DNA from: Halioglobus sp.
GTDB lineage: Bacteria > Pseudomonadota > Gammaproteobacteria > Pseudomonadales > Halieaceae
Reading direction: 5' to 3'
Assembly (NCBI GenBank): GCA_020443425.1
Contig: JAGRIE010000041.1
Coordinates: 1 to 33,829 of the forward strand
Length of the DNA: 33,829 nucleotides
The notes under the pieces were generated by a model. It had not been told where the DNA came from. It was given only the letters and a program-made list of their open reading frames with translations, and searched no databases. Every line of letters starts with the position of its first letter. The stretch's first letter is position 1. The translations under genes and the position numbers were made by a program. Positions 1 to 19,389 of the stretch are shown here, piece after piece.

Positions 1-1
1 G

Positions 2-523
2 ATCGATATTCAGGAATGTGTCCTCAGTGGTGGCTGGGAGGCACTGGAAATGGACAGCATTGACTTACTGGTGGGAGCTCCCGCGCCGGTACCATTGCAA
101 AAGGGCTTCCGAGCATTGCCCATCGCGCCTGCGGATATGGTGTTAGTGGCTGCGGCCAGTCATCCTCTTGCGGGCCTCGCGCACGATCCCCGCACTATCG
201 CCGAGCAGTTACCCCACTATCGACGCATCGTAACCCACGATACAGCCAAGCATAGTGTTATGCGGGCAGCGGGATTAACCACAGGGAAACAGGTGCTCTA
301 TGTGCAAACCATGGAACAAAAAATACAGGCGCAATTGGCGGGACTGGGCGTCGGTCATTTGCCGCAAAAATTCATTCAGATGTATCTGGAGAGCGGCGCG
401 CTGGTGAAACTGACCACCGAAGCGCGGACTACTGAAAACCTGGAATACTATATGGCCTGGAAAATCAGTAATAAGGGCAAGGCATTAAAACGACTCACCC
501 AACTATTGAACGACGCCTTTTAG
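2..523 (+). CDS. LysR-family transcriptional regulator, C-terminal part (5'-truncated by window edge)
   Basis: The reading frame is open from base 2 to the TAG at 521-523, so the gene begins upstream of the window; the first internal ATG at 50 is not its start. About 173 residues are visible. They look like the effector-binding (periplasmic-binding-like) half of a LysR regulator: a GGWEALEMDSIDLLVGA stretch near the window start, an HPLAG loop, then a region ending in KALKRLTQLLNDAF. The N-terminal winged-helix DNA-binding domain is outside the window, so the family rests on the effector domain alone. The effector and target are unknown. The base composition is lower in GC than the core genes to the right, and the gene lies just outside the left guaA-derived repeat at 580. 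It may therefore belong to a neighbouring accessory segment. Confidence 0.8.
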   Translation: MDIQECVLSGGWEALEMDSIDLLVGAPAPVPLQKGFRALPIAPADMVLVAAASHPLAGLAHDPRTIAEQLPHYRRIVTHDTAKHSVMRAAGLTTGKQVLYVQTMEQKIQAQLAGLGVGHLPQKFIQMYLESGALVKLTTEARTTENLEYYMAWKISNKGKALKRLTQLLNDAF

Positions 524-579
524 CGATCAGTTTTTCCGAGTAAAAAAAGCGGCGACAGACTTTGCCAGTGAGCAGCCGT

Positions 580-607
580 CGTTACCAGCTCACTCCCACT
601 CGATTGT
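580..607 (-). repeat. Displaced copy of the guaA 3' end (attachment-site-like direct repeat, left copy)
   Basis: Positions 580-607 match 7122-7149 at 26 of 28 bases in the same orientation, with 22 consecutive identical bases at 580-601. Read on the minus strand the segment encodes T-I-E-W-E followed by TGA, exactly the last five codons and stop of guaA, plus 10 bases beyond the stop. The two differences fall in third codon positions and are synonymous. Homology stops abruptly on both sides. The guaA 3' end is a known integration site for genomic islands, so I read this as an att site left by site-specific integration. Confidence 0.75.
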
Positions 608-720
608 AAATAAGCAGGTTTTATCTTTTATTTTCAATAGGTTATTTTCCTGATAAACAGTAATACCATGAAAAATACCATGCTCAGTAATTTCTTCAAA
701 AATCCACAATCGTTGCCACC

Positions 721-1968
721 TTATAATTTCAATGCCGCCTGTAGATCCTCGTGTTCGAATGCACTGGCCATGCGTGCTATCTCAGCACGCTTGGCTCCGA
801 CTTCTGCTGCTACTGCCTGCCAGGTGCGTGTCACCTCTGCCACTTCACGGATAATTGTGTGTACCTGTTTGGCACTGAGTCCAAAATAACCAGCCGTTTC
901 CTGCAGCAGTTCCACCGAGCAAGTGCCTTCATCAAGGTCGATATTCGTAGTCAGAATTCGCGCCTTCACATCCACCGGCGTCGGATTGAGATCATAGGCA
1001 GGCGAAAGCACCCAACCATCCTGCCCTGACCACAGGAACCCGTGGTTGCGCAAGTGATCGTCAACGTTGGACACCAGAACATTGAACACCACTCGGCGAT
1101 AAAGCTGCCGCGCGTCTCCTTTGGCTTGGGCACCATGCGCAGTCAAAGCATCTACCAGTTCGGGGTAACTGCCTCGTTCACCATCCTGTGATCCTGTCAT
1201 CGACATCGCAGACAGAAAGGGAATACGCCAATCGTTGTCCCGATCAAAACGACGTGACAACAGCACCGGTTTTCCGGCAACTTGCAGCAGCTCATGCTTG
1301 GGTGTTTGTATACCCGCCCGCTCCGCCAGCCTGAGCGCGATTTCTTCCCAGGTTTCAATGCTGTAGTCGTCGGACTCCTTGGGGAATTTTGCGATCGACA
1401 GATGGCCATGCTGATCGATCACGGATGCTTTAGGCCGGGCACCACCCAGTGATGACCCCGGTGCGAATATCAACTGCAGATCATCGTCCGTCTCCTCGTC
1501 ACGCTCTATCCGTTCAGTGATCTGAAGCAGACGACCCAGCTCAATAAGCGCAGGGACTCCGTGACGTACGGGTGACTGAAATACCTCCTCACCGCGCCAC
1601 CGAAACCTGAGTGCACCGAGACGGGTCACATCTGCCACACCAAGCAGATAATGCAGTTCCCCCAGCGTACGCACCTGCCGTCCCTCGCGTTGCGCCAGAA
1701 GTCGTTCAGCACGCTGCATCAGGCGCCTGCCCCAGGTATCCGGTGCCGAGTCACCAATCGACCCGAATATGGGCTGCCCCGCCACCGGCGGGAATGTCCC
1801 TGCAGTCAGCGTCAGTGCCGGCTCGATCGAAAACCGGTTCGCATCTCCAAGCCAGGCCTCATCATATTCAAAGGTAACGGTCTCTCCCCGGCGTGATGCC
1901 TGCCGATGAAGTATTCCCAGAGGACGTACCTGACCTTCCAGATCAATATGGACCTCAACGTCAGTCAT
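721..1968 (-). CDS. hipA: HipA-type serine/threonine kinase toxin
   Basis: A 415-residue protein of the HipA family, kinases that phosphorylate targets such as glutamyl-tRNA synthetase and cause growth arrest or persistence. Visible family features are an N-terminal coupling domain (about 1-110), the nucleotide-binding GGARPKA motif at 175-181 preceded by two serines in the loop where HipA autophosphorylates, a lysine in AKFPKE near 194, the catalytic SNVDDHLRN motif at about 300-308, and YDL near 325. All key residues appear intact, so an active kinase is likely. The start at 1968 was chosen because the ATG overlaps the hipB stop by 8 nt; extending upstream would run into hipB. The gene sits 113 nt inside the left guaA-derived repeat. 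The actual target is unknown. Confidence 0.88.
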   Translation of the reverse strand: MTDVEVHIDLEGQVRPLGILHRQASRRGETVTFEYDEAWLGDANRFSIEPALTLTAGTFPPVAGQPIFGSIGDSAPDTWGRRLMQRAERLLAQREGRQVRTLGELHYLLGVADVTRLGALRFRWRGEEVFQSPVRHGVPALIELGRLLQITERIERDEETDDDLQLIFAPGSSLGGARPKASVIDQHGHLSIAKFPKESDDYSIETWEEIALRLAERAGIQTPKHELLQVAGKPVLLSRRFDRDNDWRIPFLSAMSMTGSQDGERGSYPELVDALTAHGAQAKGDARQLYRRVVFNVLVSNVDDHLRNHGFLWSGQDGWVLSPAYDLNPTPVDVKARILTTNIDLDEGTCSVELLQETAGYFGLSAKQVHTIIREVAEVTRTWQAVAAEVGAKRAEIARMASAFEHEDLQAALKL

Positions 1969-2317
1969 CTGATTGCTTCCTGCGCTTCGTCGACATACGC
2001 ACACGCTGGGGCAGTTCCCCGGAAGACAACGAACGTCCGATTTCATCATGGGCGGGATCTGCGAGCTGATCCAGCCTGTCCAGCAAGCCCAGCGACTGCA
2101 GCACAGCAGCATAAATCCCCATACTCACACCCGGATCGCCCGCCTCAACCCGTTGCAGGGTTGCCCGGCTGGTAAAGGCCCGCTCTGCTACCACTGCCAT
2201 GGTCAATCGGCGGCGCTGCCGGGCTTCACGGAGATCGGCACCCAGCTTTCGCAAGACTCGCCTTACTGCGGAGGACGGAATATGCGGCTTTGGCATAAAG
2301 TAACATTCATAAGACAC
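1961..2317 (-). CDS. hipB: HipB-like helix-turn-helix antitoxin/repressor
   Basis: A 118-residue small XRE-type DNA-binding protein directly upstream of hipA and overlapping it by 8 nt, the usual antitoxin-first, translationally coupled order. The helix-turn-helix lies around residues 25-75, including LREARQRRRLTMAVVAERAFTS and a TLQRVEAGDPGVS recognition segment; it continues into AAVLQSLGLLDRL, which is typical of HipB-like proteins. The C-terminus is basic. The frame opens with a GTG at 2317; an ATG at 2296 (MPKPHIP) is an alternative, and neither has a good Shine-Dalgarno sequence. It should neutralise HipA and repress the operon through the inverted repeat at 2326-2353. The functional link is inferred from family and gene arrangement. 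Confidence 0.82.
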   Translation of the reverse strand: MSYECYFMPKPHIPSSAVRRVLRKLGADLREARQRRRLTMAVVAERAFTSRATLQRVEAGDPGVSMGIYAAVLQSLGLLDRLDQLADPAHDEIGRSLSSGELPQRVRMSTKRRKQSDD

Positions 2318-2325
2318 TAAATGAT

Positions 2326-2353
2326 ATTAATGTAGCATGAATAATACATTAAT
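2326..2353. promoter_or_regulatory. Candidate HipB operator (inverted repeat upstream of hipB)
   Basis: A perfect 9-bp inverted repeat, ATTAATGTA and TACATTAAT, separated by 10 bases, lies 9 bases upstream of the hipB GTG start in AT-rich DNA. HipB proteins bind as dimers to inverted repeats of similar arm-spacer-arm layout in front of their own operon. The site is in the right place to overlap the promoter. The symmetry is seen directly; the role as operator is inference. Confidence 0.5.
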
Positions 2354-2611
2354 CAATAATTCTTCTTTAATAAATGTGACCATCACAAAGGAATAAGGTG
2401 ACGCCACCCTTGGTTGTTGGTGGACCAAGCAGGAAAACCCGGGCCAGAGAGTTTGGTGAAGTCGCACATATGAAATTCTCAAATCACTATAGCCAGCGAG
2501 TGATTACGTTGACCCAAAATCTGGGGGCATACTGCCACTGTTGCGGACCCGCCGTAACCGATTATGTGGTGCGTGGGTTGATAAGTCTGCCTGGCAGGCA
2601 ACGGCTGACCG
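2354..2611. other. Intergenic region between hipB and the DUF1254 gene, no convincing gene
   Basis: The 258 bases hold an AT-rich part next to the hipB operator, including TGTGA-N3-TCACA at 2375-2387, and then a GC-richer part. An open frame on the plus strand (2398-2655) starts at a GTG and overlaps the 3' end of the DUF1254 gene. Its translation is not recognisable and has no Shine-Dalgarno sequence, so I do not call it. A GCCT-GGC-AGGC palindrome near 2590 lacks a T-tract. Confidence 0.4.
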
Positions 2612-4153
2612 CTAACGCTGCAATTCGAGATCTCCCGGTCGCCACGTCTGGTTGAACCAGGGCTCCAGAGGACCATAGAGTCTCACAGCGGCGTTGTAGC
2701 CCTTGCCGGGCCAGGTCTGCACCCAGTTATTTTCATGACCCGTCGGCGCCTCGGGGCCGAACCAGACGGTAACACCCCCATCCGGGTTCAACTCTACGCC
2801 AGGCAGCGTGCTATCGATGCCTGCCAGCTTCTGGTCGGTAGGCAGCAGCGAACGGGTCTGATTGTCATAGGCGGTAAAGGACCAAAAATTCTTCGCCGGA
2901 ATCGGTCCCGGCAGAGTGACCTTGTAGGTGCGGCTGCCATCCAGATATGCGCCACTCGAGTCACGCACGGTAATGGCATAAGCAGAACCGGTACCCGGCC
3001 GCGATTCAGTCATCGCCGGCGTGATGCCCGTCGCGTAATAAAAGAACATCATCCGCGCATCGAGAAGTCGTTCGGCACCATTAAGGAAACGATAACTGCC
3101 GCCGACGAACGGCGTAAACCATTGCCGATTTTGGTAGATTCGGGTTTGTGGATCGCGGGAGGCGAACAGGTTCGCACGAGCTATCGCGTTGCCCACCGCC
3201 ACCGCGTCGGTAAGAATTTTCTTCATCCGGGTATCGGGCGCGAACGGCTGCCCCTTACGGATACCAATTGACGCATAGAGGCCCACGGTATCCGGATCTA
3301 CCCAGTCCGCAGGCTCGTTCTGCACCACGGCGTTCAACTCATCGTAGTAACCAAAATCGTTGGCACTGATGGTGTTGAACTTAACGCCCGAAATGTTCAC
3401 GACCTGAGTTTCAGGTGGACTGGCTGCCTTGGACAGAGGAAAGATCGCGGCATTGGCCTTGACGTTCGCAACCGCTGCTGCGATGTCGCCCTTCTCCACG
3501 AAGGCACGATAGAACAACAGCATTCTGTTGGTGCGTGGTTTCGCGACGTGATAGCCCGTAGCCGGCACGGCACCCTTGTAGCCGGGCGGCACGAGCAGGT
3601 AGTCCCCGCCCGCACCCTTATCCGGACCGGTCAGGCCCACATCGGTCACCCAGCGGAAATCGGCGTCATCAACAGGCCCGAGTACACGCGGTGGCACCCG
3701 CACCACCATCGGCCCGTTGCCAACGTCGATACACTGCACCACATACACAGTGGTCGTATTCGCCGTCAGGAAGAGCGAGCGGGCATCCATGAGATTCTCG
3801 GTAATGCCGACACCCTGATTTAGTTTGATGCCCGCCTCTTCGAAACCCTTACACAGCGCGTAAATCGAGGTCGCCGATATGCCCCTGGTGAAAGCATCGA
3901 CACCGCGGCCAAAGTCGAGCTGGTCGTACGCTTTCTCAACTGTTGCCGCATCGGGCGCACCGTCTTTGAAGTGCAACGTGCCGATGCGGGTTTCAACCGT
4001 GTCGGGCGTCGTGATCTTGGCCGGCACATCAGGCGCGTACTTTGGCGGCGCGGAAGACGAGCCGCCTTGGGTCTGTGATTCCGCAGCCACCGCGGTGAGT
4101 CCAACCACCCCGATCAAAACAACACAGACAAGATTTTTAAATATTTTTTCCAT
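2612..4153 (-). CDS. Periplasmic DUF1254/DUF1214 domain protein (second of tandem pair)
   Basis: A 513-residue secreted protein. It has a signal peptide (MEKIFKNLVCVVLIGVVGLT, cleavage near AVAA), then an N-terminal DUF1254-like region (about 40-190; VETRIGTLHFKDG, LFLTANTTTVY) and a C-terminal DUF1214-like region (about 370-513; FWSFTAYDNQTRSLL, NNWVQTWPGKGYN, RLYGPLEPWF). The length suits two-domain members of this family, whose biochemical function is not established. The ATG at 4153 is preferred over the frame opening at 4180 because GAGACAGG precedes it and the signal peptide begins there. It follows its paralogue (4240-5772) by 86 nt on the same strand, so the two are probably co-transcribed. 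Both lie divergent from an AraC-type regulator, a plausible controller. Confidence 0.85.
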   Translation of the reverse strand: MEKIFKNLVCVVLIGVVGLTAVAAESQTQGGSSSAPPKYAPDVPAKITTPDTVETRIGTLHFKDGAPDAATVEKAYDQLDFGRGVDAFTRGISATSIYALCKGFEEAGIKLNQGVGITENLMDARSLFLTANTTTVYVVQCIDVGNGPMVVRVPPRVLGPVDDADFRWVTDVGLTGPDKGAGGDYLLVPPGYKGAVPATGYHVAKPRTNRMLLFYRAFVEKGDIAAAVANVKANAAIFPLSKAASPPETQVVNISGVKFNTISANDFGYYDELNAVVQNEPADWVDPDTVGLYASIGIRKGQPFAPDTRMKKILTDAVAVGNAIARANLFASRDPQTRIYQNRQWFTPFVGGSYRFLNGAERLLDARMMFFYYATGITPAMTESRPGTGSAYAITVRDSSGAYLDGSRTYKVTLPGPIPAKNFWSFTAYDNQTRSLLPTDQKLAGIDSTLPGVELNPDGGVTVWFGPEAPTGHENNWVQTWPGKGYNAAVRLYGPLEPWFNQTWRPGDLELQR

Positions 4154-4239
4154 GAACCTGTCTCTTTCAATTTTGCGCAAATGACGTGACTACTTCACCC
4201 CAAGACAATTAATAAAGGGCAAATATTAAGGGGCGCTAT

Positions 4240-5772
4240 TCAGGGTTGCAGCTCGATTTCCCCAGGACGCCAGCTCTTGTCAAACCAGGGCTCAAGCGCA
4301 CCGTACATGCGCAGCACGACATTCCAACCATTACCGGGAACAGTCTGCACCCAGTTGCTTTCCTTACCGGTCGGTGCCTTCGGTCCAAAGTAGACATCGA
4401 TTGATCCATCCGCGTTTGTCTTAAGCCCCTTCGTCTGGCTGCTCATGCTCGGGAAGCGCTGGTCAGTCTGGATCTGGGAACGTGTTTGGTCGCTATAGAG
4501 GATCAATGACCAAAAATCCTTCACCGGGACATTTGGCGGCAGGTGCAGCCGGTAGTTCTTGCCGCCGTCCAGCGGCTTGCCTTTCGCGTCGCGCGCGGTC
4601 CAAGCGTACTGAGACCCCTTGCCGATCAGTTTCTCTTCCATCGCCGGTGTGACAAGGATGGCAAGGTAGTAGTAAAAGGTCGCCGCATCAAAATCAGCAA
4701 CGCCTGGCGCCGCCAGGAAGTTGTAGCCACCGGTGAAGCCCAGCTGCCAGTTGCTGTCATCGTAGTAGTAGGCCGCCCGGTCGCGCGTATGGAACAGGAC
4801 GTTGCGCGCCGTGGCTTCGCCGACTACCGCCGCCTCCGTCAGGATTTTCTTCATCCGTGCGTCGGGAGTGAAAGGCTTGCCCTTCTGGATACCGACAGAC
4901 TGAAAGAAACCGAGGGTAACCGGGTCGAGTGAATCGCTCGGCTCCTGCTGAACCACCTGATTCAGCAGCTCCCAGAATTGATAGTTGGTCGGGAAGACTG
5001 TGTTAAAGGGCTTGCCCGACATGTTCACGACCTTGAGCGGCGGATGCGGCTTTCCCGCATCGGCCAACGGATAGATCTTCGTGAATTTCTTGACAAGATC
5101 GACACCCGGCTTAGGATTGCCGTCCACCAAAAAACTGCGCCACGGCACCCACAGTCCATACGTGGGCGACTGAACCTCGTAATAGCCGCCTGGCACCTTG
5201 CCTTTGTAGCCCGGCGGCAGAAACAGGTACTTCCCTCCCTCGCCCTTGTCCGGCCCGGTCACACCGACGTCAACTACCCAGCGTTGCCACATGTCATTGG
5301 CCGTCCCCAGCACCTTCGGGGGTACCTCAAGCACGATCGGCCCGTCGGAGAGATCGAGCCACACCCAGCTGTACACCGTGTTGTCGTTGCCGGTGAGAAT
5401 GATGGAACGTGAATCCGTCAGTTCCTCATAGATCGGCAACACCGTATTTGCCGGGCCCAGCGTCTGGAATGCCTCGCGATTGGCCACCTGGCTCACCGCC
5501 GGCATGCCAAGCAGGAAAGCCTGTACCGCACGCTGGAAGTCGAGGTTATCCCAAAGCTTTTCAGACGTGGCCTCGTCCGGAAAACCATCGAAGAAACGCA
5601 AAGTGCCGATACGGGTATCAACGCTGTCCGGTGCTGCGATGCCGGGAGGCACCGGCGTCGAGTATTTATAATTCGGGTTGGCAGGTTCGCCGGAAAGGGC
5701 CTGAGCGCTAGCAGCAGGCACAGCAGCGGCCAGCACTGCGCACAAAGCAAAGTTAGTTAGTTGGTTGGACAT
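4240..5772 (-). CDS. Periplasmic DUF1254/DUF1214 domain protein (first of tandem pair)
   Basis: A 510-residue paralogue of the downstream gene. The signal peptide starts MSNQLTNFALCAVLAAAVPA and ends at ASA-QA. The DUF1254-like region carries VDTRIGTLRFFDGFPDE and a TGNDNTVYSWVWLDL segment; the DUF1214-like region carries FWSLILYSDQTRSQIQ, NWVQTVPGNGWN and RMYGALEPWF. The shared motifs along the whole length indicate an ancient tandem duplication followed by clear divergence. The ATG at 5772 is chosen because AAGGAAAC lies just upstream and the signal peptide begins there; the frame itself opens at 5811. The role is unknown; secretion to the periplasm is the only firm prediction. Its promoter should lie in the 177-nt region shared with the divergent AraC-type gene. 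Confidence 0.85.
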   Translation of the reverse strand: MSNQLTNFALCAVLAAAVPAASAQALSGEPANPNYKYSTPVPPGIAAPDSVDTRIGTLRFFDGFPDEATSEKLWDNLDFQRAVQAFLLGMPAVSQVANREAFQTLGPANTVLPIYEELTDSRSIILTGNDNTVYSWVWLDLSDGPIVLEVPPKVLGTANDMWQRWVVDVGVTGPDKGEGGKYLFLPPGYKGKVPGGYYEVQSPTYGLWVPWRSFLVDGNPKPGVDLVKKFTKIYPLADAGKPHPPLKVVNMSGKPFNTVFPTNYQFWELLNQVVQQEPSDSLDPVTLGFFQSVGIQKGKPFTPDARMKKILTEAAVVGEATARNVLFHTRDRAAYYYDDSNWQLGFTGGYNFLAAPGVADFDAATFYYYLAILVTPAMEEKLIGKGSQYAWTARDAKGKPLDGGKNYRLHLPPNVPVKDFWSLILYSDQTRSQIQTDQRFPSMSSQTKGLKTNADGSIDVYFGPKAPTGKESNWVQTVPGNGWNVVLRMYGALEPWFDKSWRPGEIELQP

Positions 5773-5885
5773 GTTATTTGTTTCCTTGTGGCTGGGCCTC
5801 TCGGCTGACAATACCCCCCCGATGATCAGCGCAAAGAGGTCGGTAAACAGCGGGTCTGAAGTTCGCTGTGCACTGCAAGTCTAGA

Positions 5886-5910
5886 AGATTTACCAAAATC
5901 TTGTTTACCA
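5886..5910. promoter_or_regulatory. Candidate regulator-binding repeats in the divergent region
   Basis: Between the divergent DUF1254 and AraC-type genes are two direct copies of TTTACCA (5889-5895 and 5904-5910, 15 nt apart). Overlapping them is an inverted pair AGATTT-ACCA-AAATCT at 5886-5901. Such repeats are possible sites for the adjacent AraC-type protein, which usually binds direct repeats. The repeats are short, so this is a weak candidate. Confidence 0.25.
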
Positions 5911-5949
5911 AGTACGGCCTTTAATTTATCTTTAACGGCCACAGTCAAA

Positions 5950-7032
5950 ATGCCTGACGCGGTAGATTCCTTCCATGCAGCTGGAGCCCCAGAAGTGAAG
6001 CCGGCCCCGACCCCGCCACCAAAGAAACCGGCTGGAGAACTGCGTGTGCCGATCGCCACGGTGGCTAGTGTCCCGGGCTTGCTTGCTGATGCCGGTGCAT
6101 GTGCCACAAGCACTGCAAAGGCTGCTGGCTTGGACCCGAACTGGTTCGGTGATCCGACCCAAACGCTCAGCTTCGAAGAAATCGGTAAATATTTGACCGA
6201 GTGTGTCCGTGTAACGCGCGATGACAGCTTCCCGTTTCGCCTCGGATTGGCCGAGGGTCTCACCGCGCTCACGGCCATCGGCTATTTAGCTCAGAATTCA
6301 GCCGACGTGCGCGCCGCGCTCACGAACCTGAGCAATCACGTTCACCACTTCGCCGGTGCAATCGAGGTCAAAGAGCAGGATGATCTGGCCTCCCTGGAGT
6401 ACTGGTTTCTGCTCCCGTGGGTCACGGGTGCCGGGTTGATTGCCGAGGCGGGGATGGGTATCGGGGTGTCCATCCTGCGGCAGTTGTGCGGTGCCGCCTG
6501 GAAGCCGATCGAGCTTCGGCTGACGCGGAGACGTCCGCTGGGGGCATCCGAATGGCAGCAGTGCGCGCAGGCTCCCGTGCAGTTCGGGGTAAAGCACAAC
6601 TTACTGGTGTTCTCGGCAAGAGATCTGGAGCATAGGCTCGACCGCGCCAACGCTGATTTCCAACACATCCTGCTGCAGCTTGTGGCAGAGACTAACGCCA
6701 ACCGCGGCGAGGACTTCGCCCGTCAGGTCTCTGCGGTCATCCGCGAAAGCCTGTTGGCCGGAGATGTATCTGCTCAGCAAATCGCCATTCGCTTATGCAT
6801 CAGCCCGAGAACCCTGCGGCGCCGCTTGAGCGGTCAGGGCACCAACTTTGAGACGCTCCAGGAGCAGACACGATTCGAGGTCGCCCGTGAACTGCTTGAG
6901 CACTCGACCGCCTCGATAACGCACATCGCCGATCTGCTGGGTTATGCGCACTCCAGCGCACTTTCCCGCGCTTTTCGGCGGTGGGCTGGATTGTCACCCC
7001 GCAACTATCGCAACAAGCTGCTAACTGACTGA
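5950..7032 (+). CDS. AraC-family transcriptional regulator (OruR/ArgR-like, arabinose-binding-domain type)
   Basis: A 360-residue regulator. After a proline-rich N-terminus (residues 14-30) comes the large ligand-binding domain typical of the OruR subgroup (about 33-220; GLLADAGACATSTAKAAGLDP, FPFRLGLAEGLTALTAIGYLA). A C-terminal double helix-turn-helix follows (about 255-357): SAQQIAIRLCISPRTLRRRL and ITHIADLLGYAHSSALSRAF, then the closing FRRWAGLSPRNYR signature. The start has no visible Shine-Dalgarno sequence, and the conserved part begins only near residue 32, so a later start is conceivable. It is divergent from the two DUF1254 genes across 177 nt and probably controls them. It ends 89 nt before the right guaA-derived repeat, the place where a guaA-integrated element would normally carry its integrase. 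The ligand is unknown. Confidence 0.88.
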   Translation: MPDAVDSFHAAGAPEVKPAPTPPPKKPAGELRVPIATVASVPGLLADAGACATSTAKAAGLDPNWFGDPTQTLSFEEIGKYLTECVRVTRDDSFPFRLGLAEGLTALTAIGYLAQNSADVRAALTNLSNHVHHFAGAIEVKEQDDLASLEYWFLLPWVTGAGLIAEAGMGIGVSILRQLCGAAWKPIELRLTRRRPLGASEWQQCAQAPVQFGVKHNLLVFSARDLEHRLDRANADFQHILLQLVAETNANRGEDFARQVSAVIRESLLAGDVSAQQIAIRLCISPRTLRRRLSGQGTNFETLQEQTRFEVARELLEHSTASITHIADLLGYAHSSALSRAFRRWAGLSPRNYRNKLLTD

Positions 7033-7121
7033 GAGTAGATTAAGCCCACTGAAGCTCGTCTGTTTTAGGCGCTGCAGAATCGGTCGTTTTTTACAGTGTC
7101 CCGGTGCAAAACATTGTTTGC

Positions 7122-7149
7122 CGTTACCAGCTCACTCCCACTCAATCGT
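7122..7149 (-). repeat. guaA 3' end, right copy of the direct repeat (attachment-site-like)
   Basis: This copy contains the real guaA stop codon (TGA, complement of 7132-7134), the preceding codons for T-I-E-W-E, and 10 bases downstream of the stop. It matches the left copy at 580-607. The guaA reading frame is complete, as expected when an element restores the gene end on integration. The identical core is 7122-7143. Confidence 0.75.
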
Positions 7150-8709
7150 CGCAGGCGGTTTGCTGCTGATATCGTAAGTGACTCGTGACACACCGGATAT
7201 CTCATTGATAATGCGATTCGAGCAGCGTTCCAGCAAGTCGTAAGGCAGGTGCGCCCAGCGCGCTGTCATAAAGTCGATCGTCTCCACCGCGCGCAGTGCG
7301 ATAACGTATTCATAGCGGCGGCCATCGCCCACTACACCCACAGACTTCACCGGCAGGAACACGGCGAACGCCTGGCTGGTTTTGTGATAGTAATCGGCGC
7401 GGTGCAGTTCCTCGATGAAAATGGCATCGGCCTGGCGCAGCAGATCAGCGTACTCTTTCTTCACCTCGCCGAGAATGCGCACACCCAGCCCCGGGCCGGG
7501 GAATGGGTGGCGGTAGACCATATCGTAGGGCAGGCCCAGTTCCAGGCCGATGCGGCGCACTTCATCCTTGAACAATTCGCGCAGTGGCTCCACCAGTTCG
7601 AGTTCCATATCGTCCGGCAGGCCACCCACGTTGTGGTGTGACTTGATGGTGTGGGCCTTGCCGGTTTTGGCACCGGCCGATTCGATCACGTCGGGGTAGA
7701 TGGTGCCCTGTGCCAGCCATTTTACCTCGGTCAGTTTTCCCGCCTCTTCGTCGAAGACATCGATAAACGTATTGCCGATCACCTTGCGCTTGGCCTCCGG
7801 GTCAGACACTCCCTTCAAGCGCTGCAGGAACATGTCTTCGCAATCGCGGCGCAGCACTTTCACGCCCATATTGCGCGCGAACATCTCCATCACCTGATCG
7901 CCCTCGTGCAGGCGCAGCAAGCCGTTGTCCACAAACACACAGGTCAACTGGTCACCGATGGCTTTGTGCAGCAGGGCCGCCACCACAGAGGAATCCACGC
8001 CACCCGACAGGCCCAACAACACCTTGTCGCTGCCCACCTGGGCTTTCACCCGTTCTATCGCATCTTCAACGATATGCGCGGGCGTCCACAGTGCTTCACA
8101 GCCGCACTGTTCCAACACAAAATGCTCAAATATCCGCTCGCCCTGCAAGGTGTGTGTCACCTCGGGGTGGAACTGAATGCCGTAGAAGGGTTTGGTTTTA
8201 TGCGCCATACCGGCGATGGGGCAGCTGGCGGTTTCCGCGATCAACTCGAAATCAGGCGGCAGTTCCACCACCTTGTCGCCGTGGCTCATCCACACGTCCA
8301 GCAGGCCGTTGCCGTCCTCATCGAAATGATCGCGAATATCGTGCAGCAGGCCGGCGTTGCCCACCTGCCTGATCTGCGCATAGCCGAACTCGCTGACCGG
8401 CGAGCTGCTGACCTTGCCACCGAACTGCTCGGCCATTGTCTGCATGCCGTAGCAGATACCCAGCACCGGCACCCCCAGCTCGAATACCACGGCAGGCGCG
8501 CGCGGCGAGGCGTCGGCGGCGACCGATTCCGGGCCGCCGGACAGGATGATGCCGCTGGGAGCAAAGGCCCTGATCTCGTCCTCGCTCAGGTCAAAGGCGC
8601 GAATCTCGCTATAGACGCCGGCCTCGCGCACGCGACGGGCAATCAACTGGGTGTACTGGGAGCCAAAATCCAGGATAAGGATCTTGCTGGCGTGAATATC
8701 TGCGCTCAT
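7132..8709 (-). CDS. guaA: GMP synthase (glutamine-hydrolysing)
   Basis: A 525-residue enzyme converting XMP, glutamine and ATP to GMP in the cytosol. The N-terminal class I glutamine amidotransferase domain has its nucleophile in GICYGMQ (Cys86) and the HPE motif (His181, Glu183). The ATP pyrophosphatase domain has the SGGVDS P-loop at 235-240. A C-terminal dimerisation domain ends in the conserved TIEWE. The length equals that of E. coli GuaA. The ATG at 8709 is preferred because AGGA lies just upstream and [21 protein letters not shown] matches the family start; the open frame extends 14 codons further. It follows guaB by 66 nt, forming the usual guaBA operon. Its 3' end is the right border of the accessory region. 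Confidence 0.98.
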
Positions 8710-8775
8710 GTGGTGTCCTGGCTGCAAAGGGGAAACTGCGCTGCCTGCCATGCGTCGCTGCAGCGCGGTAAAAGC

Positions 8776-18290: not shown

Positions 18291-19389
18291 TCACAGACCG
18301 CTTTTCAGCGATGCCTCTATAAATCGGTCGATATCACCATCGAGCACCGCCTGGGTGTTACTCGTCTCCACACCGGTGCGCAAATCCTTGATTCTGGAAT
18401 CATCCAGCACGTAGGAGCGGATCTGGCTGCCCCAGCCGATATCCGCCTTGCTGTCCTCCATCGCCTGTTTCTCGGCATTGCGCTTGTGCACCTCCAGCTC
18501 ATACAGCTTGCCGCGCAACAGTTTCATCGCATTATCGCGGTTCTGGTGCTGCGAGCGCTCCGTCTGGCACTGTACTACGGTACCGGTGGGCACGTGAGTG
18601 ATACGCACTGCCGAATCGGTTTTGTTGACGTGCTGGCCACCCGCGCCGCTGGCGCGATAGGTATCCGTGCGCAAGTCGGCCGGGTTGATGTCGATCTCGA
18701 TATTGTCGTCGATCTCCGGCGCGACAAACACAGAGGCGAAGGAGGTGTGGCGCCGGTTGCCCGAGTCAAACGGCGATTTGCGCACCAGGCGGTGCACGCC
18801 GGTCTCGGTGCGCAGCCAGCCGAAGGCGTACTCGCCCTCGAATTTGATGGTCGCGCTCTTGATACCGGCGACATCGCCGCCGGAGGCCTCAATCAGTTCG
18901 GTGTCGAAGCCCTTGTCCTCGCCCCAGCGCAGGTACATGCGCAGCAGCATCTCCGCCCAGTCCTGGGCCTCGGTGCCACCGGAGCCCGCCTGGATATCCA
19001 GATAGGCATTGTTGGCGTCCATCTCGCCGGCGAACATACGCCGGAACTCCAGCTTTTCCAGCAGCGCCACCAGGGCATCGATCTCCGCCTCGATTTCCGC
19101 CACCGTGGCCTCGTCGTCCTCGGACGCGGCCAGTTCCAGCAGGTCGCGGGCATCGGCGGCCCCGGCATCCAACTGCTCGATGGTATGCACGGTATTCTCC
19201 AGCGATGAGCGCTCGCGGCCCAGTTCTCGGGCGCGCTCGGGCTCATTCCAGACACTGGGTTCCGCCAGTTCCAGTTCTACCTCAGCGAGGCGTTCCTTGC
19301 GCAGATCGAAGTCAAAGATACCCCCTGAGCACGCCAGTGCGCGCCTCGATGTCCTTCAATTGATTCAGTAGAGGGTTGATCTCAAGCAT
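18291..19389 (-). CDS. prfB: Peptide chain release factor 2, expressed by programmed +1 frameshift
   Basis: RF2 recognises UGA and UAA and releases the nascent chain. The gene starts at the ATG at 19389 and runs 25 codons ([10 protein letters not shown]...LRGYL) to an in-frame TGA at 19312-19314. Skipping the T at 19314 continues the frame from 19313 to the stop at 18291, giving 365 residues, the same total and the same shift position as E. coli. The SPF tripeptide that reads the stop codon is in [12 protein letters not shown], and the GGQ hydrolysis motif is in [14 protein letters not shown]. Reading only the single large frame would wrongly start the protein at 19190 and lose the N-terminus. 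It is co-transcribed with lysS. Confidence 0.97.
19311..19326 (-). promoter_or_regulatory. prfB: RF2 programmed frameshift signal
   Basis: On the minus strand the order is AGG GGG TAT CTT TGA C. It combines an internal Shine-Dalgarno-like AGGGGG, the slippery CTT codon, and the weak TGA-C stop. This is the textbook autoregulatory element: low RF2 slows termination and favours the +1 shift. Every base of the core matches the E. coli signal. Confidence 0.96.

Follow-up and report, generated by a model that had tools for sequence, protein, structure and literature searches.

In this work we analysed a 33,829-bp stretch of DNA from a Halioglobus species of the Halieaceae (contig JAGRIE010000041.1; hereafter the window, whose start is base 1 of its contig), in which a 6.5-kb segment lies directly downstream of guaA, the GMP synthase gene, between two copies of the guaA 3' end. 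Our comparisons make it quite probable that this segment, which encodes no integrase, belongs to a tandem array of GIsul2-type units at the guaA 3' end and was mobilised in trans.

The two guaA-tail copies, both read on the minus strand, lie in place at 7122–7149 (the guaA-proximal att copy, on the attL side) and displaced at 580–607. As a previous sequence-only reading of the window had reported, and as direct comparison confirmed, they are identical at 26 of 28 positions in the same orientation, share a perfect 22-bp core (580–601 and 7122–7143) and both encode T-I-E-W-E-stop. Because no match with up to three mismatches appeared when the window was dinucleotide-shuffled 100 times, a chance origin of the repeat is excluded. 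The repeat is not a dispersed sequence either: in the assembly as a whole (4.33 Mb, 222 contigs, 94% complete), a query of 201 bp taken from around the end of guaA found these two places only, at E 0.001. Among the 18 genomes of the genus, the 22-mer (up to two mismatches) occurs in one, its own, and so a gene order conserved in relatives with the same repeats was found in none of the 17 others; this is a strict test, since the 22-mer reaches beyond guaA by 10 bases.

The segment is missing in a sister genome. In G001, a genome of the same genus whose GuaA is 96% identical to that of the window, the guaA tail is followed at once by the LysR 3' end present in the window to the left of position 580. 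Related genomes with an empty site at guaA were what the sequence-only reading had proposed to look for, and the site in G001 is free of this segment. Positions 1–535 of the window align to G001 18417–18951 at 94.4% and positions 7119–7299 to G001 19036–19216 at 89.5%, while positions 552–607 align at 85.7% and overlap the second of these alignments at one core. Since the alignments meet at a single core, the 6.5 kb are inserted, relative to G001, exactly between the repeats. The displaced copy is G001-like on its far side and foreign on its near side, and the guaA copy is the reverse. Set side by side against G001, the two copies thus display what is, on sequence grounds, the pattern of attL and attR, which supports the proposed integration at a guaA attB.

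The near side of the displaced copy is itself a conserved structure. This conserved right end (R end, 591–695, minus strand), identified by blastn, profile and plasmid matches, contains paired CATGGTATT motifs 12 bp apart and ends in the core, so that the displaced copy constitutes the core of an attR-type end. Together with the displaced copy, the ~105 bp preceding it were matched by blastn in 25 of 140 genomes of the taxonomic family, the own genome included, some matches being short. A profile of the R end gave 50 matches in the stretches fetched from these genomes, with full R ends in 25 contigs from 24 genomes. Two [C/T]ATGGTAT motifs 12 bp apart are present in 29 of the 42 full ends, and 33 have the core GAGTGGGA unchanged; core conservation was judged on these 42 ends only, as the pattern used to search genome contigs includes part of the core. 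In the 17 genomes whose R end shares a contig with guaA, it invariably lies downstream of that gene, on the guaA strand, at a distance of up to ~127 kb; in the remaining eight of the 25, guaA is on another contig (seven) or the genome was left out (G086, a 27-base match). In the displaced copy, GAGTGGGA is preceded by ACAATC, the version common to many related ends, and the two mismatches between the repeats therefore need not be drift. Rather than being a guaA copy that has only drifted, the displaced copy is an end of the attR type found in GIsul2 and CR2-sul2.

The relationship with these elements is close. The R end is 85.8% identical over 106 bases to a copy in Acinetobacter towneri pGX3-1, where 296 bases separate the start of its core from sul2 downstream; attR has been placed ~304 bp upstream of sul2 (PMC9376610). 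It is also 84.8% identical over 112 bases to a sequence upstream of ISVsa3 in A. baumannii pAB04-1. As many as 3930 plasmid records match the R end, although at least 80% of the query is covered in only 38, and in the three plasmid regions read it lies upstream of an IS91-like (ISVsa3/CR-type) transposase gene. GAGTGGGA is the cutting site of P4-type integrases in guaA islands (PMC7775301). At this guaA core the integrase of GIsul2 acts not only on its own island but also on the CR2-sul2 unit, which has no integrase, excising and integrating each of them in reactions for which int and the att sites are needed (PMC9376610). Two CR2-sul2 units were found in the attR of a guaA island of Aeromonas caviae (Shi et al., 2019, as cited in PMC9376610). 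Candidate sources of such an integrase exist within the genus: in G016 and G002 an integrase gene directly follows guaA, and that of G016, which carries an Arm-DNA-bind_3 domain, is 85.6% identical to the integrase that A. baumannii ATCC 17978 carries on a plasmid of 148,955 bp. We take this plasmid to be pAB3. pAB3 is named as a carrier of GIsul2 (PMC9376610).

The segment thus resembles GIsul2, ICERspD18B and GIflu-1 in its insertion at the guaA 3' end, its core GAGTGGGA and its direct repeats, but differs in that these elements encode an integrase (and alpA too in GIsul2 and ICERspD18B, according to the papers on them) whereas the segment encodes none. Neither a P4-type integrase nor alpA was found among its five genes, which belong to the hipBA, DUF1254 and AraC families only and include no other integration or transfer family; a PF00589 search between the repeats gave no match, in agreement with the sequence-only reading, and the sole match in the window is XerD, at 28.8–29.7 kb on the opposite side of guaA. 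Another close likeness is to the CR2-sul2 unit, also integrase-less, with the same guaA core and the same attR-type end, and mobilised by the GIsul2 Int (PMC9376610). Unlike that unit, the segment carries neither an rcr2 or other ISCR transposase nor sul2 or another resistance gene, its cargo is hipBA, AraC and DUF1254, and its left end is atypical.

The 6.5 kb are not uniform, and the view of a composite island holds. The hipBA cassette part (590–2356, minus strand), which includes the R end, is 87% identical in DNA to L197 and L157. In L197, a Chromatiales metagenome-assembled genome (MAG), hipBA has a guaA core at 2902 on one side and an R-end core at 4898 on the other, beyond which comes TadA (NCBIfam, above cut-off), and from its sequence hipBA with its R end there is a complete ~2-kb cassette between guaA and tadA. 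A TadA-like gene also lies within 100 bp after guaA in G004, G006, G007, G008 and G009, and so the guaA-tadA adjacency looks like the plain locus. Between the window and L197 the cassette is 87% identical over 1767 bp whereas guaA DNA is only 68% identical, which indicates horizontal movement of the hipBA cassette. The homology ends at 2356, where in L197 and L157 the left end follows; the window lacks that left end. Instead, an AraC-DUF1254x2 block (2616–7012) is 81–82% identical to contig C354 of G002, the only one of the 17 other genomes of the genus that has the block at high identity, and there it lies away from guaA, the 14 kb read being free of GAGTGGGA on both strands. Judging from these alignments, the block has been acquired separately and replaces the left end of the cassette. 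For the ~255 bp between the hipBA break and the first DUF1254 gene (2357–2611), searched as the stretch 2318–2660, no second place was found in the own genome.

The LysR 3' part (2–523, plus strand) belongs to yet another unit. In G046, genes for LysR, DoxX, Flavodoxin_2, GST and pirin lie between two R ends, and in G001 the same order directly follows guaA and is closed by a weaker R end; the two units align over 4147 bp in sum, with a best piece at 91%. By its position in this gene order the LysR flank of the window is, as far as sequence tells, the head of a second unit of the same family.

These observations fit a mechanism in which a P4-type tyrosine integrase encoded elsewhere, comparable to that found after guaA in sister species, would join the circular attP of a unit to attB, whose core GAGTGGGA lies in the last codons of guaA. 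Integration would keep guaA intact and place the attR-type end 6.5 kb downstream. The nucleus of the cargo would be the hipBA-type (toxin-antitoxin-like) cassette with its conserved R end, the original left end would have given way to the AraC-DUF1254x2 block, which a sister genome carries at another place, and the second, LysR-headed unit would adjoin directly. An integrase from a co-resident island may act on core and arms. Supply of the integrase in trans is proposed by analogy with the CR2-sul2 precedent, and we likewise infer by analogy the mobilisation, its direction and the order of events.

Several observations weigh against mobilisation in trans of such a unit. The own assembly, 94% complete, contains only two PF00589 matches, one of which is XerD, and no helper was seen in it; the unit may therefore be stranded now. 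The guaA-side left end of the window matches the profile of CTGGCACTGGC-type left ends with E values of only 1.3 (iterated) and 1.1 (seed only), so that this copy may be without a good left arm and its left end may be defective. The left end of G001 was dropped as evidence, since its E value of 4.7e-6 was obtained with an iterated profile that may include the G001 end itself and falls to 0.42 with the seed only. The R-end core of G001 is degenerate (GCGTGGGA). The reading does not account for the 10 bp by which the 22-bp identity extends beyond guaA. In the survey described below, 2 of 45 units contain a partial R-type match, and the integrase profile used there would miss serine recombinases. 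Beside the CTGGCACTGGC type, two more left-end types were seen by eye (cores in L134, L136, L206 and L217, and in L170, L216 and L238); one is A+T-rich and the other has a GTCCTTCGGGGACTATCG-like stretch, the latter lying before integrases in L170 and L216.

The R end extends far beyond this array. Our survey covered 150 contigs from genomes of the taxonomic family, general genome contigs (at least 118 stretches) and viral contigs (IMG/VR), and the profile gave at least 215 R ends, of which 193 are unique and 179 full-length, after removal of rows with E above 1e-3 (245 to 215), duplicate sequences (215 to 193) and partial ends (193 to 179). The counts of units, cores and orientations that follow hold among the matches listed. 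No tyrosine integrase was detected in any of the 45 units between successive full R ends, with a home-made profile that detects XerD. These units have a median length of 2483 bp, and 40 of the 45 are at most 6.5 kb long. Contigs with two or more full ends, up to six, have them in one orientation in 32 of 32 cases (38 of 38 if duplicate sequences are kept). An integrase ORF or fragment follows nine of the 143 cores with 2 kb beyond them, three of these on viral contigs. In the IMG/VR contigs L242, L243 and L245 the R end is followed ~280–350 bases on by a G016-type integrase, possibly that of a prophage-like helper.

Whole cassettes recur in different arrays (Fic, PIN, ParDE, LysR-DoxX, AAA and hipBA). 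From the 40 units of at most 6.5 kb we collected 119 ORFs of at least 70 amino acids, called mechanically, some of which are surely not genes. The families recorded are Fic (8), DUF4172 (6), PIN (5), DUF4143 (4), AAA_14 (4), ParD (4), ParE (4) and TacA1 (2), among the top 25 of 76, and PADLOC assigned SoFic (7) and AbiEi (2), among the top 25 of 45. R-end records without Sul2 include gamma- and betaproteobacteria, for example Gallionella and Duganella, among the matches listed. Sul2 itself (~99.6% identical copies) lies beside the R end in environmental genomes and MAGs (G014, locus L108; G058, locus L109) and in 30 of at least 118 genome-contig loci; these loci are the known CR2-sul2-type unit.

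We lean slightly towards a broader proposal, that the guaA 3' end anchors a natural gene-cassette system, analogous to integrons and independent of them, in which GIsul2-like integrases of the P4 type shuffle cassettes that have no integrase. As proposed, this system would comprise cassettes mostly under ~6 kb, each ending in the ~105-bp R end and the guaA-tail core, in gamma- and betaproteobacteria at least, with toxin-antitoxin, Fic and defence-type cargo prominent; the clinical CR2-sul2 resistance unit would be one captured member and the hipBA cassette of the window another.

A plain cis-mobilizable element (CIME), that is, a guaA island that once carried an integrase and lost its integration and transfer genes through deletion while keeping attL and attR, would explain the segment without cassette-like mobility. 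Tandem CIMEs are described at gene 3' ends (PMC5704250), and the segment shares with them putative att-type sites at both ends, the lack of integration and transfer genes and its tandem arrangement with another unit. Its atypical left end and the rearrangement indicated by the AraC-DUF1254 block could result from decay of an integrative and conjugative, or integrative and mobilizable, element. However, L197 has the hipBA cassette complete and with nothing else between guaA and tadA, and Fic, PIN and ParDE cassettes of unit length recur in different hosts beside different neighbours, with no integrase detected in any of the 45 units, which suggests more than decay. Because repeated independent decay to the same units would be needed, we consider a plain CIME unlikely, if still a serious competitor. 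The toxin-antitoxin cargo, a feature of integron cassettes, and the small tandem units in one orientation with many toxin-antitoxin families also recall integron arrays, in which the ends would be attC-like sites that IntI recombines in folded, single-stranded form. Here, however, the ends are conserved in sequence and the R end in the window folds no better than its shuffles on either strand (z −0.58 and −0.16; for two other ends z was −1.80 and −1.16). The paired direct motifs fit an arm-binding integrase, Arm-DNA-bind_3 is present in all three integrases scanned from such loci, and the anchor is guaA. An integron-type array is hardly credible on these grounds.

Two further origins were considered. 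An origin by partial duplication, or by homologous recombination, of the 3' end of guaA, with no site-specific event, has a possible parallel in G057, where a long guaA 3' fragment lies downstream of guaA, but the two copies in the window have no more than 28 bp in common, and the displaced one is flanked by G001-like sequence on its far side and by the conserved R end on its near side, so that such an origin is very improbable. The fragment in G057 (L103/L121) spans codons 339–539, is 91.5% identical to the GuaA of the window and lies ~2.2 kb downstream of the intact gene; another genome, G152, has three near-full guaA genes (contigs C7 and C18), two of them on one contig. A chimera of assembly or binning could be suspected from a contig that starts inside an array, but the guaA and LysR flanks both align to neighbouring positions of a single contig of G001, and independent genomes contain matches to the R end and to hipBA, which makes an artefact of this kind very doubtful.

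The genes occur in the order LysR 3' part, HipA family, helix-turn-helix (HTH) protein, two DUF1254/DUF1214 proteins, AraC and guaA. The hipA-type gene (721–2112 as the ORF is listed, minus strand; start likely at ~1968 by inspection) matches HipA_C and Couple_hipA above the Pfam cut-off and the NCBIfam HipA model only below its cut-off, and its protein is 91% identical in L197 and 89% in L157. It is accompanied by a hipB-like HTH protein (1961–2317, minus strand), recognised by domain search and comparison with homologues. Domain searches identified the two DUF1254/DUF1214 proteins (2612–4180 and 4240–5811, both minus strand, 48% identical in amino acids), the AraC-family regulator (5950–7032, plus strand) and the target gene guaA itself (7132–8751 as listed, minus strand). 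No tRNA or tmRNA was found in the window, and a search of positions 1–8000 with Rfam gave nothing at the gathering threshold.

The usual view of CR2-sul2 units is that they are a resistance vector, and ISCR2 is seen as a transposon. On the sequence evidence assembled here, the segment of the window is a cassette from a broad family, mostly without integrases, whose end recurs in this clinical resistance vector. CR2-sul2 itself is already known as a case of an integrase-less guaA unit (PMC9376610); for the wider guaA cassette family no description was found in the open-access listings searched. If the attR end is indeed the standard end of a broad environmental family of guaA cassettes, the resistance unit would be one cassette among many, trans-mobilisation would become testable with non-resistance cargo, and the guaA cassette family would be a natural reservoir that accounts for integrase-less inserts behind guaA.

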